Positions 1-32,727 of a stretch of 32,727 nt of DNA are shown here, piece after piece (positions within the stretch are counted from its first letter, which is position 1; every line of letters starts with the position of its first letter). The notes beneath the pieces are model-generated. The model was not told where the DNA came from. It was given only the letters and a program-made list of their open reading frames with translations, and ran no database searches. The stretch is from the NCBI GenBank assembly GCA_000371745.1, contig AQUH01000010.1, forward strand, positions 1-32,727. The letters are read 5' to 3'. The DNA is from an alpha proteobacterium SCGC AAA280-B11 (GTDB taxonomy: Bacteria; Pseudomonadota; Alphaproteobacteria; Pelagibacterales; Pelagibacteraceae). The position numbers and the translations under genes are program-made.

Positions 1-575
1 ATACTTTTAACAAGAGCGTCGATAAAAAGTGGTTCGCTCTCATAATGTGGTATTACCTGTAAGCCCGGTTGCCATCTCATGTCCATCAAATTTCTGTAAA
101 CTTCATCGCAAACAGTTGCTGTAGTTGCGGAAGCATATTGTGGGTACAAAGGAAAAATAATAATTTTTTCACAACCCTCTTTTTTTAAAAAGTCTAGTTT
201 GCTTTTTAAACTTGGATTTCCATATCTCATCCCAAAATCAACAATGATATTATTACTTCCAATTTTGTTCTTTAATTTTTTTGCCTGACTATCCGTGTAA
301 TATCGAAGTGGTGACTGGTTAATATCATTCATCCAAATTTTTTTATAAGCGTGTGCTGTTTTTGAGGGCCTAAAGGTTAATATAAATAAGTTTAAAATTA
401 TTTGCCAAATAATGGGGTTAAGTTCTATGACCCTTCTGTCTGATAAAAACTCTTTTAAATATTTTCTAATGTCCCACCAGCCAGTCGTGTCTGGTGTGCC
501 AAGATTGACGAGCAACACTCCTGTTTTGCCAAATTTTATCTTGGGGTGATTAATTTTTTCCAAATCGAAACTCAT
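1..575 (-). CDS. hemH: Ferrochelatase, N-terminal part (cut by left edge)
   Basis: Ferrochelatase inserts ferrous iron into protoporphyrin IX, the last step of heme synthesis. About 191 residues are visible. After an ATG at 575-573 the protein reads LLVNLGTPDTTGWWDIRKYL, the family's N-terminal signature, followed by FLSDRRVIELNP and, further on, FGMRYGNPS and FPLYPQYASATT, all typical of HemH. The C-terminal half, with the catalytic His/Glu region, lies outside the window. The ATG overlaps the TGA of hemE (ATGA, 574-572), so the two are probably translationally coupled. The family assignment is firm. In related genomes hemJ and rho often lie near hemE/hemH, which bears on the chimera near 3380. 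Confidence 0.95.
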   Translation of the reverse strand, partial: MSFDLEKINHPKIKFGKTGVLLVNLGTPDTTGWWDIRKYLKEFLSDRRVIELNPIIWQIILNLFILTFRPSKTAHAYKKIWMNDINQSPLRYYTDSQAKKLKNKIGSNNIIVDFGMRYGNPSLKSKLDFLKKEGCEKIIIFPLYPQYASATTATVCDEVYRNLMDMRWQPGLQVIPHYESEPLFIDALVKS

Positions 576-1582
576 AAATTATAACTCCTTACAAAATCAA
601 CCAACTTCTTAACATTGCTGGGGTTGGTTTGTGGCAGTATTCCATGCCCCAAATTAAAAATATAGGGTTTGTCTTTAAAAAAATCTAAATATTTCTTTGC
701 CTCTTTGAACATTTTTTTATTACTTCCTAATAAAAATTTTGGGTTCAGCCCCCCTTGAAAAGTTATATTTTGAGTTAAATCTAATTTATTAAGATTAATA
801 TCGTGATCAAGGCTAATACCGCTCGGTTTTACCTTTTTTATAAAATAATTAATGTTTTTATTAATTCCTTTTGGAAAACAAATTACCGGATTATTCGGGT
901 ATTTTTTTTTTATTTTATTAACAATATTTTTGTTTGGGTTGATACAAAACTCATTTAAATCCTTTTCTTTTATTAAGCCTGCCCAACTATCGAATAGTTG
1001 TATAATATCTGCACCTGCTTGTATTTGTTTTTCGCAGTGTATAAAAACTAAATGTTCTAATCTTTTAATTATTTTTATTATTTCTTTTTTTTTTGTTTTT
1101 TTTAAAAAATTTATATTTTTTTTTGGCGACATTTTGTTGAGCATGTAAACTAAAAGTGTCCATGGTGCTCCTGCGAATCCTATTAAAGACTTTTCTTGTG
1201 GTATTTTGTTTTTTAATTTTTTTAATATTTTATAAACGTTGGTTAAATTATTAGTAAATTCTTTATCTGTTAAATTATAAAATTTATTTGAGTTATATTT
1301 GTTTAAAATTGGACCAACATTTTCTTTAAATTCTACCTTTTGTCCGACAGCACTTAATATTAGCAAAATATCGGAAAAGATAATAACTGCGTCTAAATCA
1401 AATTTATTTATTGGTTGTAGTGAAACGGTTGTAGCGTCGTTCACGTTTAAGCAAAATTTTACAAAATCTTTATTTTTTTTTCTTATTTTTTTATATTCTG
1501 GTAAATATCTACCTGCTTGGCGCATAAACCAAATAGGTAAATTTTTTTCTTTATGTAAAAGACAGTTAAGTAAACTACTCAT
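572..1582 (-). CDS. hemE: Uroporphyrinogen decarboxylase
   Basis: Decarboxylates the four acetate side chains of uroporphyrinogen III to give coproporphyrinogen III, a cytoplasmic heme-pathway step. The 336-residue length is normal. The WFMRQAGRYLPEY signature lies at residues 18-30, the FSDIL segment near residue 70 carries the conserved Asp, GFAGAPWTLLVYML follows in the middle, and the C-terminal NLGHGILPQTNP motif is present. The gene is the first of a hemE-hemH pair (ATGA overlap) and reads away from the AT-rich spacer interpreted as oriC. The hemE position beside the origin is conserved in Caulobacter and Rickettsia. Poly-T and poly-A runs in the middle are ordinary for this AT content. 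Confidence 0.97.
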   Translation of the reverse strand: MSSLLNCLLHKEKNLPIWFMRQAGRYLPEYKKIRKKNKDFVKFCLNVNDATTVSLQPINKFDLDAVIIFSDILLILSAVGQKVEFKENVGPILNKYNSNKFYNLTDKEFTNNLTNVYKILKKLKNKIPQEKSLIGFAGAPWTLLVYMLNKMSPKKNINFLKKTKKKEIIKIIKRLEHLVFIHCEKQIQAGADIIQLFDSWAGLIKEKDLNEFCINPNKNIVNKIKKKYPNNPVICFPKGINKNINYFIKKVKPSGISLDHDINLNKLDLTQNITFQGGLNPKFLLGSNKKMFKEAKKYLDFFKDKPYIFNLGHGILPQTNPSNVKKLVDFVRSYNL

Positions 1583-1640
1583 TAATAAATATTAGTTAAA
1601 ATAGTAGTATTATATGGTTCTGTTAGTAATGTGTTTATGT

Positions 1641-1662
1641 TTTTATTAACATTTTATTAACA
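1641..1662. repeat. Tandem 11-bp repeat in oriC spacer
   Basis: TTTTATTAACA occurs twice back to back (1641-1651, 1652-1662). The 11-bp period is about one helical turn, and related TTATTAA words recur at about 1719-1725, 1760-1767 and 1782-1788. This would suit an unwinding element or iteron-like protein sites within the origin, but low complexity alone could give such words. Confidence 0.6.
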
Positions 1663-1845
1663 CTCTTTTGTTAATTAATTTTATTTAATAACTTTGTGAT
1701 TTTAACAATTATCTAAAGTTATTAACGATATTAAAAATTAAAAATACCGAGTTACCAATGTTATTAATTTAATAACAATACTTTATTAAGTGTTAATGCT
1801 TGTTAATTTTAAAACTACAAGTGTATAAACTACATTAATAAACAT

Positions 1846-1854
1846 TTATCCACA
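1846..1854 (+). promoter_or_regulatory. DnaA box (perfect TTATCCACA)
   Basis: The nonamer is identical to the high-affinity DnaA-binding consensus and ends six bases before the PPSR start codon. Together with the hemE/PPSR flanks it supports the origin call. At this position bound DnaA could also affect PPSR expression, which is inference. Confidence 0.7.
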
Positions 1855-1859
1855 CATCT

Positions 1860-2675
1860 ATGAACAGAAAATATAATGTATTTTTAGTTTCAGATTCAAC
1901 CGGGGAAACGCTAGATCGGATATTTTTGGCTCTAAAAGCGCAATTTGAAAATTTTAACAACACTCTGCACCATTTTTCTTTTGTTAGGACTGAAACTCAA
2001 ATTAAAACATTGCTGGAAAAGTGTAACAAATTAGGAAATCCAATAATTTTGTATACGTTAGTGGAGACCTCTATCACCTCTGTTTTGATAGAAGAGACAA
2101 AAAAAAATAAAATCCCCTGTTTTGGAGTATTAGATTATTTAATTCCAAAGTTTGAAGAGGTTTTAAATAGAAAAGCAAATCATAAGCCCAGCGGCCAACA
2201 TGCTTTAAATAAAGAATATTATAAAAAAATATCAGCAATGCAGTTTAGCATCGAGCATGATGACGGGCAGAAATTAGAAACTATTTTGGAATCAGATATA
2301 ATTATTTTAGGAATTAGCAGAACAAGCAAAACGCCAACCACCATCTATCTTGCAAATAAAGGTTTTAAATCCTCAAATATTCCAATGGTTCCTAATCAAA
2401 AAATACCGGAAGAAGTTTTAAAAAATAAAAAAGTAACAATAGTTGGACTTGTGGCCGACCCAGAGAGGCTTGTTGATATAAGAAAAAATAGGCTTAGCAC
2501 TTTAAGTGAAGACAAGCACACTTCTTATGTTGATTTAGATAAAATTAAAGATGAGCTTGAGGAAAGTAAAAAAATTTTTAAAACAAATAATATTCCAACA
2601 ATTGATGTTACAAGAAAATCAGTTGAAGAAATAGCGGCCTCAATCATAAAGATACACGAAATAAAAAATAGTTAA
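1860..2675 (+). CDS. Pyruvate, phosphate dikinase/PEP synthase regulatory protein (DUF299, RP001 homologue)
   Basis: Members are bifunctional ADP-dependent kinases and Pi-dependent phosphorylases that switch pyruvate phosphate dikinase or PEP synthase off and on. The 271-residue length is typical. The N-terminal VFLVSDSTGET motif (residues 8-16) and the P-loop GISRTSKT (151-158), followed by PTTIYLA, are diagnostic, and the C-terminal LSTLSEDKHTSYVD and IDVTRKSVEEIAASI also match. It is the first gene of the rightward run with maf and the aroE fragment, and it abuts the putative oriC as its homologue does in Rickettsia. Which of the two target enzymes it regulates cannot be told from this window. 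Confidence 0.93.
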   Translation: MNRKYNVFLVSDSTGETLDRIFLALKAQFENFNNTLHHFSFVRTETQIKTLLEKCNKLGNPIILYTLVETSITSVLIEETKKNKIPCFGVLDYLIPKFEEVLNRKANHKPSGQHALNKEYYKKISAMQFSIEHDDGQKLETILESDIIILGISRTSKTPTTIYLANKGFKSSNIPMVPNQKIPEEVLKNKKVTIVGLVADPERLVDIRKNRLSTLSEDKHTSYVDLDKIKDELEESKKIFKTNNIPTIDVTRKSVEEIAASIIKIHEIKNS

Positions 2676-3262
2676 TGAAAGATATAATTTTAGCATCCGC
2701 AAGTGGGATAAGGCTAAAAATATTAAAAGATTATGGTTTTAATGTTAGGGCTATTCCGGCGGGCATAGATGAAGATGAAATAAAAAACTCATTGTTAAAT
2801 GATAGATTTACGTCTTTTGATATTTCACGAGCTCTCGCAGAAACAAAAGCAAAAAAAATAAGCAGCAAATTTATGAATGAAATGGTTTTGGGTGCTGATC
2901 AAGTTTTAGATTTTCAGGGCAAGATATTTAACAAACCAGAGAATATGGAATCAGCTCTTAACTTAATGAAAAAGTTAAATGGAAATATTCATTTTATATT
3001 TAGCTCTATTTGTTTAAGTAAAAATAATGCTGTTATTTGGATGCACACCGAAAAAGTCATTTTAAAAATGAAAAAATTGTCAGATGAATTTATTAAAAAT
3101 TATTTAGATAAAGTGGGTTTGGAAATAATAAAACAATACGGGGTTTACCAAATCGAGGGCCAGGGTAAAGAATTATTTGAACAAATCCAAGGAGACGAAT
3201 ATTCTGTTATGGGAATGCCAATTAAGCAATTAATGAATTATTATAAAATAAATGAAAAATAA
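2675..3262 (+). CDS. maf: Maf family nucleotide pyrophosphatase
   Basis: Maf proteins hydrolyse non-canonical or standard nucleoside triphosphates to monophosphates and have been linked to septum inhibition. The 195-residue sequence opens with DIILASASGIRLKIL, the Maf signature, then has a GIDEDEIK acidic segment, VLGADQVLDFQGKIFNKP in the middle and QIQGDEYSVMGMP near the end. The ATG overlaps the PPSR stop by one base (TAATG), and its own 3' end overlaps the aroE fragment by 11 bases, so translation is probably coupled. The PPSR-maf-aroE order is common in alphaproteobacteria. Confidence 0.93.
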   Translation: MKDIILASASGIRLKILKDYGFNVRAIPAGIDEDEIKNSLLNDRFTSFDISRALAETKAKKISSKFMNEMVLGADQVLDFQGKIFNKPENMESALNLMKKLNGNIHFIFSSICLSKNNAVIWMHTEKVILKMKKLSDEFIKNYLDKVGLEIIKQYGVYQIEGQGKELFEQIQGDEYSVMGMPIKQLMNYYKINEK

Positions 3263-3644
3263 AAAAAAATTTGTGGTTATTGGTAACCCAATAAAACATT
3301 CTTTATCTCCCTTTTTGCATAATTATTGGTTTAAAAAACTTAAATTAAATTGTGAGTATAAAAAATTAAAAATAATTATGAACCCGGCGATGATTGTTAC
3401 TTGGTTAACAGGCTTATCAATCTTATGGGTTCTAGGATTTAATACTATCTTTTCTTTGTGGTTATCGATTAAATTTTTATTTGTAATTATTCTATCCGGC
3501 TATCATGGTTTTTTATCCAAATGTTTGAAGGATTTTGCGCTAGATAGAAATACTAGAAGCTCAAAATTTTTTAGGTTTATAAATGAAATACCAACTATAA
3601 TATTGATAATCATTGTTTTTTTAGTTATTTTTAAACCCGCTTGA
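3252..3644 (+). pseudogene. In-frame chimera: aroE 5' end joined to hemJ 3' end
   Basis: The 130-residue frame has two unrelated halves. Residues 1 to about 38 are the start of shikimate dehydrogenase (VVIGNPIKHSLSPFLHNYW, with the shikimate-binding Ser17 and Ser19). From about residue 42 it is the C-terminal half of HemJ, a membrane protoporphyrinogen oxidase (NPAMIVTWLTGL, SGYHGFLSK, FALDRNTRSSKFFRFINEIPT, then a terminal membrane helix). The NADP domain of AroE and the first part of HemJ, with its N-terminal helix and conserved His, are missing. The join falls near 3366-3380 in an A/T-rich stretch, so the exact point is ambiguous. Neither activity is expected from the product. It may be a real deletion/inversion scar or an amplification or assembly chimera. 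Confidence 0.9.
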
Positions 3645-3711: not shown

Positions 3712-4983
3712 ATGAATTTACAAGAATTAAAAAATAAAACCCCAGCAGATTTAATTTTAGAAGCTGAAAAACTTGGCATAGAAAACCCAAGCACAATGCG
3801 TAAGCAAGAAATCTTGTTTGCCATTCTTAAAAAATTTGCAGAAAAAAATGAAAAAATTACTGGAAGCGGAGTTCTAGAAACTTTGCAAGATGGCTTTGGT
3901 TTTTTAAGAGCTACGGAGTCAAATTATTTGCCAGGTCCAGACGATATTTATGTAAGCCCAAGTCAAATTAGAAGATTTGGTCTTCGAAAAGGAGACACGG
4001 TTGAGGGTGAGATTAGAGCGCCAAAAGATTCAGAAAGATATTTTGCTCTTCTGCAGGTTAGTAAAATAAATTTTGAAGATCCTGAAAAATCTAGAAATAA
4101 AATAAACTTTGATAACCTAACACCTTTATATCCAGATGAACGTATTAAGTTGGAAGTAGAATCTAATAAAGCGGAAAAGAAACCAGATTTAACAGCAAGA
4201 CTAATAGACCTTGTGACCCCAATTGGAAAAGGACAAAGAGCTTTAATTGTATCGCCTCCAAGAGCAGGAAAGACAGTAATACTTCAAAACATTGCCCATT
4301 CAATCACGGCAAATCATCCGGAAATTTATTTAATAGTTTTGCTTATAGATGAAAGACCAGAGGAAGTTACGGACATGCAACGTTCTGTGAAAGGCGAAGT
4401 AGTAAGCTCAACGTTTGATGAACCGGCAATGAGGCACGTTCAAGTAGCCGAGATGGTTATTGAAAAAGCAAAAAGGTTAGCAGAGCACAAAAAAGATGTT
4501 GTTATTTTATTAGATTCAATCACTCGATTAGGTAGAGCTTATAACGCCGTTGTCCCAAGTTCAGGAAAAGTATTAACGGGCGGTGTGGATGCCAATGCTT
4601 TACAAAGACCAAAAAGATTTTTTGGAGCAGCTAGAAATATCGAAGAGGGCGGATCACTTACAATTATTTCAACGGCATTAATTGAAACAGGTTCAAGAAT
4701 GGACGAAGTTATTTTTGAAGAATTTAAAGGAACAGGTAATGCCGAAGTTATCCTAGATAGAAAAATTGCTGATAAGAGAATTTTCCCAGCAATTGATATT
4801 ACTAAATCTGGCACTCGAAAAGAGGATTTATTATTTAAGAAAGAAGATCTCCAAAAGATGAATGTTTTGAGAAGATTAATAGCTCCTATGGGTAACATGG
4901 AAGCAATAGAATTTTTAATTGGAAAATTAAGAGAGACAAAAAATAACGCTGAATTTTTTGACTCTATGAATAAGTCTTCTTAA
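3712..4983 (+). CDS. rho: Transcription termination factor Rho
   Basis: Rho is the hexameric RNA-dependent ATPase that ends transcription at C-rich untranslated RNA. The 423 residues have the complete layout: the N-terminal helical Rho_N segment (about 1-45), the cold-shock-like RNA-binding domain with GFGFLR at 61-66, the P-loop SPPRAGKT at 181-188, Walker [17 protein letters not shown], and the R-loop/Q-loop region through [20 protein letters not shown]. It follows the hemJ fragment by 67 bases, the hemJ-rho neighbourhood known from other alphaproteobacteria, although here that block sits on the PPSR side of the origin. Its stop directly abuts the stop of the convergent Lon-domain gene. Confidence 0.97.
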
Positions 4984-5637: not shown

Positions 5638-5728
5638 TATGAATGAATATAGTGTTTAATTTGATTTATTCAATTTCACTTTTCAATTGATTAAAATTTA
5701 TTTTTGTTTAATTTCACTGAATTATTAA

Positions 5729-5803
5729 GCGGGTGTAGCTCAGTGGTAGAGCGAATCGTTGCCAACGATTAGGTCGTGGGTTCAATTCCCTTCACCCGCT
5801 CCA
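5729..5803 (+). tRNA. tRNA-Gly (anticodon GCC), CCA encoded
   Basis: A full cloverleaf can be folded by eye. The acceptor GCGGGTG pairs with CACCCGC, the D arm contains AGTGGTA, the anticodon stem AATCG/CGATT encloses loop TTGCCAA with anticodon GCC, and the T arm is GTGGG/TTCAATT/CCCTT-like, with the 3' CCA encoded. Length is 75 bases including CCA. Its last 23 bases plus two following A residues are repeated at 7024-7048, marking it as an integration target whose coding function has been kept. Confidence 0.96.
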
Positions 5804-5805
5804 AA
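5781..5805 (+). repeat. Putative attachment site, tRNA-proximal copy (25 bp)
   Basis: The 3' part of tRNA-Gly, from the T-loop TTCAATT through CCA and two more A residues, is identical to 7024-7048. With the intact tRNA on this side, this is the layout left when a tyrosine recombinase integrates an element into a tRNA 3' end. The repeat-to-repeat distance is 1243 bp. Confidence 0.8.
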
Positions 5806-5806
5806 T

Positions 5807-6805
5807 CTATAAAGTTAGCAATAATTTATATAATCTTATATTTTCAATATATAATTTAACACATTTACAGAAATTAATTATGGTATTGCTGTATTTTTTT
5901 TCTAATAATACTTTATTTGTTAGGTCTTCATTAATAGATTTTTCACAAGAATCCATAATTCCAAGAATAACTTTTTGAGTTTGGTTGCCAGGGAATATTT
6001 TTAAAAAATTGTTAATATTTTTTGGTATTTCTTGTTTTTTAAAGATTAAGTCTTCATTAAAATAATAACGATTATCTTTTTTTATAAAATTGAAATTAAC
6101 GTTATTATTATTTAATCCTTCAACAAATAAAGACTGATTTGGAATATTAAAAGATTTGTATTCTTCAGGAAAAAATCCCCAAGTGATAAAAAACTCAATA
6201 GGATCCATATCCGATGTGTATTCACAACATATTTCTTCATCTTTTTCCATTAATTGGTTATTGGCAATAGATACAGATTTATCATCTACTAGATATTTTT
6301 TTCCATGATAATGAAAATTAATTATATCTAATATAGGCATTAAAACTTTTTCATTATTTTTGTTTGTAGTAGATCTTGTTAAAAAAGTAACAAAAACAAA
6401 TTGTTCATTATTATTTAAATGTTCAAAGTGTTTTAAATGATTTAGCAAAATTTTTTTTAAAAACGAATTTTTTTCTACAATTTGAATCATTAAGTCCTTT
6501 TCTAAAGGATCACAAAAGCAGGGATGGTGTTCTTTATAAAATTCTATACTAGGAAGTGTTTTTATATACGCATTTAGAAAATCAATATGAGGATATTCAA
6601 TTTTTTTACCATCTAAAAAATCAAGAAAATCTTTTGCATTAATTGTTAAAATAAATGGCACTTTAATTAATGTCTCTTCTTGTTTTAATTGTTTTTTAGC
6701 AAAGAAACCCCAACCCGAATCTTTATTATATTTTGTATATAAGTCATCATGTATGTAGCCGTCATATTTTTTAAATAATTCTATTAAATAATTGACCTGT
6801 GACAT
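5807..6805 (-). CDS. SET-domain protein, Rubisco LSMT-like protein lysine methyltransferase family
   Basis: SET proteins of this type transfer methyl groups from S-adenosylmethionine to protein lysines. The 332 residues show GWGFFAKKQLKQEETLIKVP at 31-50, matching the N-terminal SET strand. At 155-163 LMPILDIIN leads into the D-x-x-N-H position, but here it reads N163-F164-H165, so the usual His directly after Asn is Phe. Y196 with FFITWGF fits the catalytic-Tyr region. A Lys/Asn-rich C-terminal segment follows, where LSMT proteins have a substrate-binding domain. The stop lies one base past the att repeat, convergent with tRNA-Gly. It is the only cargo of the insertion. The fold assignment is good; activity and substrate are unknown. 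Confidence 0.8.
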   Translation of the reverse strand: MSQVNYLIELFKKYDGYIHDDLYTKYNKDSGWGFFAKKQLKQEETLIKVPFILTINAKDFLDFLDGKKIEYPHIDFLNAYIKTLPSIEFYKEHHPCFCDPLEKDLMIQIVEKNSFLKKILLNHLKHFEHLNNNEQFVFVTFLTRSTTNKNNEKVLMPILDIINFHYHGKKYLVDDKSVSIANNQLMEKDEEICCEYTSDMDPIEFFITWGFFPEEYKSFNIPNQSLFVEGLNNNNVNFNFIKKDNRYYFNEDLIFKKQEIPKNINNFLKIFPGNQTQKVILGIMDSCEKSINEDLTNKVLLEKKYSNTIINFCKCVKLYIENIRLYKLLLTL

Positions 6806-6952
6806 TATTATTTTTTAAATGTCTGTAATTATTTTTTAAGAATAAATTTTATATAAAGAATCTATATGTAATTTTTATTTGCTGATTAATTAAACTATAA
6901 AGATAATTTTAAAAAACTTACGCACTTGTCACACACTTTGGTCCAGAATCTC

Positions 6953-6986
6953 AGGCAGACAACTTTCTAAAATAGGCAGACAACTT
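6953..6986. repeat. Paired 13-bp direct repeat near the distal att copy
   Basis: AGGCAGACAACTT occurs at 6953-6965 and again at 6974-6986, start to start 21 bp, or two helical turns. It lies 38 bp before the distal tRNA-derived repeat, a suitable place for recombinase arm sites, and is richer in G/C than its surroundings. It could instead be an operator of the SET gene. Function is inferred from position only. Confidence 0.5.
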
Positions 6987-7023
6987 CTTCTGGAAGCATT
7001 GATTTTACTAGCATAGCGAGGTC

Positions 7024-7048
7024 TTCAATTCCCTTCACCCGCTCCAAA
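7024..7048 (+). repeat. Putative attachment site, distal copy (25 bp of tRNA-Gly 3' end)
   Basis: It is identical to 5781-5805. The bases just before it (AGGTC) also match the variable-region AGGTC of the tRNA if the five bases GTGGG are skipped, so the copy may carry a slightly longer, decayed tRNA remnant. No cloverleaf can be formed here. Confidence 0.8.
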
Positions 7049-7090
7049 ACAGCAAACAAAATAACTTTAATCTGATATAAGAAAGTAATT

Positions 7091-11432: not shown

Positions 11433-13067
11433 TTATTTTTCTAAGTTAACGTTTCTTTCTTCTGTTATAAAGAAAGTTCCAATTACAAATGTTCCAAGTG
11501 CAACAATGATTGGATACCATAGACCGTAGTAAACATCGCCTTTTAATGCCACCATAGCAAACGCTGTGGTTGGTAGTAATCCACCAAACCATCCGTTTCC
11601 AATGTGATAAGGTAATGACATTGATGTGTAACGAATTCTAGTTGGGAACATCTCAACTAACATCGCAGCAATCGGTCCATAAACCATAGTCACATAGATA
11701 ACTAGAATAACTAGTATTGCTAAAACCATCGGCTTGTTTATTTCCTCAGGGTCAGCTTTTGCTGGGTAACCTGCGGCATTAACAGCCTCAGTGAACTTAG
11801 CAGTAAAGTCAGCAGCAGCAGCTTTTGGATCAGCTACTTTCTTCGCATCATATGATTGGATCACTTTGTCACCAATTTTGATTGAAGCAGTAGTTCCAGC
11901 AGGAGCATCTGCGTTAGTATAGTTAACTGATCTTCTAGCTAAACTTGCTTTTGCTATATCGCACGAACTTGTGAACGACTTTGTTCCTGTCGGGTTAAAC
12001 TGGAACTGACAATCATTAGGATCAGCAGTTACAACAACCGGAGCAGAATTAATAGCAGCTTCAAGTTTTGGATTAGCATAGTGAGTCAAACCTTTAAACA
12101 GCGGGAAGTAAGTAATAGCCGCAAGCAGACATCCTGCCATGATTATTTTCTTTCTTCCGATGTTGTCAGACATGATACCAAAAACGATAAAGAACGGAGT
12201 TCCAATCACTAATGATATGGCAATCAAAATGTTAGCTGTAGCACTGTCAACTTTTAAAGTTTGAGTTAAGAAAAACAGAGCGTAGAATTGTCCAGTATAC
12301 CAGACAACTGCTTGACCCGCTGTTAATCCTAAAAGAGCTAAGATAACTATTTTAGCATTTTTCCACTCAGCAAAAGATTCTGTAAGTGGTGCTTTTGATC
12401 CTTTACCTTGCTTCTTCATTCTCGCGAATACTGGAGACTCATTCATCGCTAAACGAATCCAAACAGAAATTCCAAGAAGAATTGCAGATAATAAGAATGG
12501 TATTCTCCATCCCCAATCAGCAAACTGTTCTTCACCAAGATATGTTCTTATTCCAAGAATAACTAATAGAGATAAGAATAATCCTAATGTTGCAGTTGTT
12601 TGAATGAAAGATGTGAAGTAACCACGTCTATCAGCTGGAGCATGTTCAGCCACATAAGTTGCCGCGCCACCGTATTCACCGCCCAGAGCAAGACCCTGAA
12701 GAATTCGAAGTGAAATTAATGCTATTGGAGCTATCACTCCAACTTGAGCATAAGTAGGTAGAACACCAACCAAGAATGTTGCAAAACCCATGATGACAAT
12801 TGTTACTAAGAAAGTATGCTTTCTTCCTACCAAGTCACCTAAACGTCCGAATAAAATCGCTCCAAATGGACGAACGATAAAACCAGCAGCAAAAGCTAAC
12901 AAAGCAAAAATGAATGCTGTGTTAGGATCTGTACCAGCGAAGAACTGTTTAGCAATAATTGCCGCAAGTGAGCCGTATAAATAAAAATCATACCACTCAA
13001 ATACAGTCCCTAGAGAAGAGCCTACAACAACTAGGCGTTCTTCTTTCGTGAAACCACGTGAACTCAT
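11433..13067 (-). CDS. MFS transporter, metabolite:H+ symporter (MHS) type, with long periplasmic insertion
   Basis: A 544-residue, 12-helix major facilitator of the MHS type, which includes ProP-like and dicarboxylate/shikimate carriers. The N-terminal GTVFEWYDFYLYGSLA is the family hallmark, motif A reads GRLGDLVGRKHTF, LRILQGLALGGEYGGAATYVAEHAP follows helix 4, and a second motif-A copy is GIMSDNIGRKK. Between two late helices lies an insertion of about 110 residues (roughly 325-440), Ala/Lys/Asp-rich with two cysteines (NDCQF and SSCD) that could form a disulfide outside the membrane. The leader has AAGGGGG four bases before the ATG, nearly the same as the acs leader. Codon use is less AT-rich than its neighbours, suggesting high expression. 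The substrate is unknown; a carboxylate linked to acs is a guess. Confidence 0.87.
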   Translation of the reverse strand: MSSRGFTKEERLVVVGSSLGTVFEWYDFYLYGSLAAIIAKQFFAGTDPNTAFIFALLAFAAGFIVRPFGAILFGRLGDLVGRKHTFLVTIVIMGFATFLVGVLPTYAQVGVIAPIALISLRILQGLALGGEYGGAATYVAEHAPADRRGYFTSFIQTTATLGLFLSLLVILGIRTYLGEEQFADWGWRIPFLLSAILLGISVWIRLAMNESPVFARMKKQGKGSKAPLTESFAEWKNAKIVILALLGLTAGQAVVWYTGQFYALFFLTQTLKVDSATANILIAISLVIGTPFFIVFGIMSDNIGRKKIIMAGCLLAAITYFPLFKGLTHYANPKLEAAINSAPVVVTADPNDCQFQFNPTGTKSFTSSCDIAKASLARRSVNYTNADAPAGTTASIKIGDKVIQSYDAKKVADPKAAAADFTAKFTEAVNAAGYPAKADPEEINKPMVLAILVILVIYVTMVYGPIAAMLVEMFPTRIRYTSMSLPYHIGNGWFGGLLPTTAFAMVALKGDVYYGLWYPIIVALGTFVIGTFFITEERNVNLEK

Positions 13068-32117: not shown

Positions 32118-32640
32118 CCGCAGGCAGCATAGGTAACTTAGCTTTAATAGTTTGTATTATACTTAACATTTATTTAATTTTTTCTTTAACAACAAAAATA
32201 AGAAAAAAAAATTTTAAAGATTTAAAGAAAATAAAATTTATTAATAATAGTATTTTTATTTTATTATTGGTTTCATTTCTAACTTTGATTTATTGTTTTG
32301 TTATTTCTGATTTTGCAAACGTTGCGGTTTATCAAAACTCCCACACAACAAAACCTTTGCTTTATAAAATATCAGGCGCCTGGGGTAATCACGAAGGCAG
32401 TATGGTTTTATTTGTTCTTATTTTATCTTTGTTTTCTTTTTTATTCTCAAATAGCAAAGTAAATGAGGAATTAAAGATTTACACGATTTTTTTTTCAATC
32501 AATATTAATCCTTATTTTTTTAATTTTTTTAATTTTTACCTCTAATCCTTTTGATCAAATTGATCCAAAGCCATTACAAGGACTCGGTTTGAACCCAATT
32601 TTGCAAGATCCATTGTTAGTAATACATCCCCCATTTTTGT
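32114..32640 (+). pseudogene. ccmF: ccmF, 5' part, frameshifted and then lost at a junction
   Basis: CcmF is the heme lyase core subunit. The first frame gives an N-terminus with helices and KPLLYKISGAWGNHEGSMVLFVLIL, a strongly conserved CcmF block. The frame then shifts at nine T's (32487-32495). Dropping one T restores IYTIFFQSILILIFLIFLIFTSNPFDQIDPKPLQGLGLNPILQDPLLVIHPPFLY, all matching CcmF, so a one-base excess is the simplest explanation. After HPPFLY the expected LGYVG is absent and the sequence turns into an inverted livF start. Whether the gene is truly broken or this is an error at a sequence end cannot be decided here. Confidence 0.88.
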
Positions 32641-32721
32641 ATTTTTGGGTACTTCGATATTAATTTTCTTTAGAACATTTACTTTGCCGTAACCAGATTC
32701 TAAATCTTTTATAATTAACAT
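32638..32721 (-). CDS. LivF-like ABC ATPase, first 28 codons only (inverted, truncated)
   Basis: Read on the minus strand from ATG 32721-32719, the sequence is MLIIKDLESGYGKVNVLKKI followed by NIEVPKNT, the start of a branched-chain amino acid (HAAT-type) ABC ATPase, where SGYGK-VNVL precedes the Walker A loop. The Walker A that should follow is missing because the frame runs into ccmF sequence. The match is short but specific to the LivF/LivG start. No other liv gene is present. Confidence 0.65.
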
Positions 32722-32727
32722 AATTTT

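Follow-up and report, generated by a model that had tools for sequence, protein, structure and literature searches.

Does the 130-residue open reading frame at 3252..3644 (plus strand) of contig C10, in which the beginning of aroE runs directly into the end of hemJ, correspond to a gene of the organism? Contig C10 is the window, that is, the whole stretch of DNA that was analysed (32,727 nucleotides), and it belongs to the assembly G000 (672,291 bases in 47 contigs, 55% complete), from the freshwater SAR11 genus Fonsibacter. The join is truly in the sequence, but very probably not in the organism: the 130-residue frame is almost certainly a chimera made in vitro by multiple-displacement amplification (MDA) and not a real gene. 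The features that bear on this answer are listed below, with the two arms of the join placed on G004, a relative assembled in one contig.

3..575, minus strand: hemH, 5' part only, truncated where the contig begins; 191 residues with an open end (open reading frame and relatives)
572..1582, minus strand: hemE (open reading frame and relatives)
1860..2675, plus strand: PPSR gene (Kinase-PPPase, PF03618; open reading frame and Pfam)
2675..3262, plus strand: maf (PF02545), intact, overlapping the aroE start (open reading frame and Pfam)
3252..3373, plus strand: 5' end of aroE, ~40 codons, closing the first arm; forward on G004:C1 up to 1,091,819
3369..3373, no strand: junction, with the 5-nt microhomology AAAAT (three-way comparison with G004)
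3369..3644, plus strand: 3' end of hemJ, ~90 codons, opening the inverted second arm; backward from G004:C1 1,087,850
3712..4983, plus strand: rho, intact, the native neighbour of hemJ (open reading frame and relatives)
32640..32727, plus strand: another false join, where the contig ends on the right; it truncates ccmF (our assignment)

The two halves of the frame were each recognised by a Pfam profile above its cut-off. Residues 9–62 matched positions 1–52 of the 83 in Shikimate_dh_N, and residues 34–129 matched positions 49–145 of the 146 in UPF0093/HemJ, the final two thirds of that profile. The frame is thus made of ~40 aroE codons followed by ~90 hemJ codons; the full-length genes of relatives have ~275 codons (aroE) and 144–150 codons (hemJ). 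DNA alignment to G004 gave the same division. Positions 1–3373 of the window ran forward along 1,088,445–1,091,819, and from 3369 onward the window ran backward from 1,087,850. The join is therefore inverted, and the two joined points lie 3,969 bp apart in G004 (1,091,819 versus 1,087,850). At 3369–3373 the letters AAAAT are common to the contig, the aroE side of G004 and its hemJ side, giving a 5-nt overlap; this is a three-way identity with G004, and the true length in the cell's own parental sequence may differ slightly. Open reading frame, Pfam and DNA alignment all agree with the preliminary description, which had reported ~40 aroE codons joined in frame to the 3' end of hemJ. Its remark that the other heme genes here are intact needs correction for hemH, which is cut by the contig start.

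What is the native arrangement of these genes? We read the gene order in 20 stretches from 19 relatives. In every same-genus relative with a contig spanning the region, the order was rho-hemJ-hemH-hemE followed by the divergent PPSR-maf-aroE, and hemJ and aroE were both intact and full length. The same order was found in nearly all other members of the family and order that we examined. The expectation that hemJ and rho normally adjoin hemH and hemE, on the other side of the hemE/PPSR gap, is thus what relatives show. The locus had also been placed beside the origin, which is roughly right, as the hemE/PPSR gap of G004 lies ~18 kb from the minimum of cumulative GC skew; the origin has no role in explaining the join. 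None of 60 relatives carried hemJ and aroE in one frame, and where both genes were found they were separate matches in long open frames. A GTDB scan returned no other aroE-hemJ fusion; the closest named relatives in it were Candidatus Fonsibacter (LD12, the freshwater clade of SAR11), and SCGC single-cell genomes were among them.

Two variations in gene content were seen in passing. In G020 and G032, complete genomes of another genus, g9, no hemE, hemH or hemJ lies between PPSR and rho, and a hemJ-like match is far off (for example at G020:C1:721004); the heme genes appear to have been relocated in this genus. Within the window, positions 5638–7090 fill a slot between a LON-domain gene and a 4a-carbinolamine dehydratase-like gene, which varies from ~0.2 to 3.7 kb among same-genus relatives. 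Here it holds a 332-residue minus-strand protein with no Pfam match, SET-like by eye only.

We aligned 41 contigs of G000 to G004, limiting long contigs to their first 20 kb, for a total of 361 kb aligned; among those sampled, 16 small contigs (C26–C41) read only N and fall outside the scripted check. Besides C10, five sampled contigs carry abrupt inverted joins relative to G004:

C12, 14124/14134: inverted join
C15, 6661/6666: inverted join
C19, 456/462: inverted join
C22, 1439/1444: inverted join
C25, 3039/3046: inverted join

All six in-contig joins are inverted, and at the joins only 4–8 nt are identical three ways with the reference arms of G004. The same procedure applied to 20 sampled contigs of the same-genus metagenome-derived genome G008 (~210 kb aligned) gave no abrupt inverted join. 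This control is small: ~3.5 joins would be expected at the G000 rate, so that a zero is only moderately significant and the contrast between the two assemblies is supportive, not overwhelming. Another false join closes the window on the right. The final 88 bases of the window (32640–32727) are identical to the interior of C13 at 11696–11783, where the reverse strand, as we read the frame, codes for a LivF-like ABC ATPase; the window sequence before these bases, which we assign to ccmF, leaves the G004 match at 32644.

Exact overlaps of 86 or 95 bp between contig ends expose the assembly graph, and in it the native order could be read beside the inverted one. C12 begins with 95 bp that exactly reverse-complement the sequence immediately following its own join; C24 supplies the native loop that links the arms of C22 (overlaps of 95 and 86 bp); and C21 leads, in native order, into the second arm of C25 through an 86-bp overlap. 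Both orders are therefore present in the assembly at three of the five other joins (C12, C22 and C25), as expected of amplification chimeras and not of the chromosome of a haploid cell. The start of C2, the start of C9 and the end of C16 are likewise exact 95-bp reverse complements of sequence inside their own contigs, and are probably hairpin-type chimera branches in the graph. The positions of the contig starts follow a pattern as well. In G004 coordinates, the window starts 595 bp short of the point where its second arm begins, so that C10 starts 595 bp inside its own inverted arm; the corresponding distances are 427 bp for C15 and ~2 kb for C19, and C12 starts exactly at the second-arm start. 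A chimeric molecule of this geometry would be an inverted repeat with a loop, and a contig made by merging its arms should begin at or inside the start of the second arm; nothing of the kind is predicted by a real inversion.

If ~4 kb of the chromosome had truly been inverted, in this cell or its lineage, the breakpoints would lie inside aroE and hemJ, both genes would be destroyed, and the cell would need other enzymes or an external supply of heme and aromatic amino acids. In favour of such an inversion, the junction is clean and in frame, and when the rest of the assembly was searched with Pfam profiles and with the DNA of relatives, neither an intact aroE nor an intact hemJ was found, and the profiles gave no second member of either family. 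An in-frame join is expected in one third of cases, however, and the search, which the preliminary description had proposed as a check, does not separate the two readings, since each breakpoint runs into a gap in the assembly: ~0.6 kb on the hemJ side and ~2.7 kb on the aroE side, where C6 is the next contig. The assembly does not contain the native order here, as it lacks 3' hemH, 5' hemJ and 3' aroE sequence. Because the assembly is 55% complete and both breakpoints abut gaps, the missing intact copies are uninformative. The reciprocal junction that an inversion would leave (5' hemJ to 3' aroE, inverted) was not found in the assembly, a weak test at 55% completeness. Against an inversion stand also the intact copies of both genes in the same-genus relatives that hold the region, and the five other inverted joins, three of them beside the native order. 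We consider a real inversion very improbable. The preliminary description had preferred an MDA chimera over a real inversion, and its preference is supported by the synteny with relatives, the inverted orientation, the distance of ~4 kb, the 5-nt microhomology, and the five further joins, with native order beside three and none in the metagenome-derived control.

Could the assembler alone have produced the join, by mis-resolving its graph of short reads and without any chimeric DNA molecule? Such an error would fit the exact 86- or 95-bp overlaps between contigs, which resemble those of de Bruijn graph assemblies, and the contig ends that meet the interiors of other contigs. The 4–8 nt shared at the joins are, however, far below these overlaps, so the assembler probably needed reads crossing the joins, and a pure graph error is unlikely. 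The uniformly inverted orientation of the six in-contig joins is, moreover, that of MDA. Taken together, this leaves an assembly error on its own a highly improbable source of the join. A functional fusion gene conserved in the lineage can be dismissed with near certainty: the 130 residues do form an open frame, which overlaps maf in the way that native aroE does, but this frame lacks most of shikimate dehydrogenase and the N-terminal portion of HemJ, and the fusion was found neither in the 60 relatives searched nor elsewhere in the GTDB scan.

For the MDA chimera, a plausible order of events can be outlined. One Fonsibacter cell would have been amplified whole-genome by phi29 polymerase. A strand being copied through PPSR-maf-aroE would have lost its 3' end ~40 codons into aroE, and the freed end may have annealed, through ~5 nt (AAAAT), to a displaced single strand within hemJ, ~4 kb back. 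Synthesis from the paired end would then have gone on in the reverse direction, across hemJ and rho and further; alternatively, the mirror event would have happened on the other strand. The assembler would finally have merged the two inverted-repeat arms into a contig with its start near hemJ, which reaches aroE and from there passes into hemJ-rho. Both the MDA amplification of the sample and this order of events are what we infer from the sequence; the cell itself presumably had its genes in native order, with aroE and hemJ both intact.

The value of the finding is one of caution only. The 130-residue frame should not be annotated as a gene. Neither aroE nor hemJ can be used for claims of gene loss or auxotrophy from this assembly, and their truncated copies are no evidence of auxotrophy. 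Gene order in the assembly is unreliable, as the sampled sequence has about one false inverted join for every 60 kb aligned.

How does the locus compare with known systems? It has the same genes as the native SAR11/Fonsibacter locus, and each arm of the window is collinear with relatives. It differs in that the arm from hemH to aroE is inverted relative to hemJ-rho and in that both breakpoint genes are truncated. When DNA of a single E. coli cell was amplified by MDA, 85% of the chimeras were inverted, and the inverted ones mostly joined segments <10 kb apart; 93.5% of these <10-kb inverted chimeras showed complementarity, of up to 21 bases, where the segments meet (Lasken and Stockwell 2007, PMC1855051). 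For LD12, ten single-cell genomes obtained by MDA have been published (PMC4053759). The E. coli chimeras were seen in single reads, whereas the C10 join is seen in an assembled contig, with an amplification method that we infer. In the other respects the likeness is close: the second segment of C10 is inverted, the joined points are 3,969 bp apart and hence <10 kb, five complementary nucleotides lie at the join, and there are several joins per assembly. The C10 join thus has the marks of an MDA chimera, namely opposite orientation, segments <10 kb apart, short complementarity (within 2–21 nt), absence from the independent genomes searched, and similar joins elsewhere in its own assembly with none in the G008 sample.
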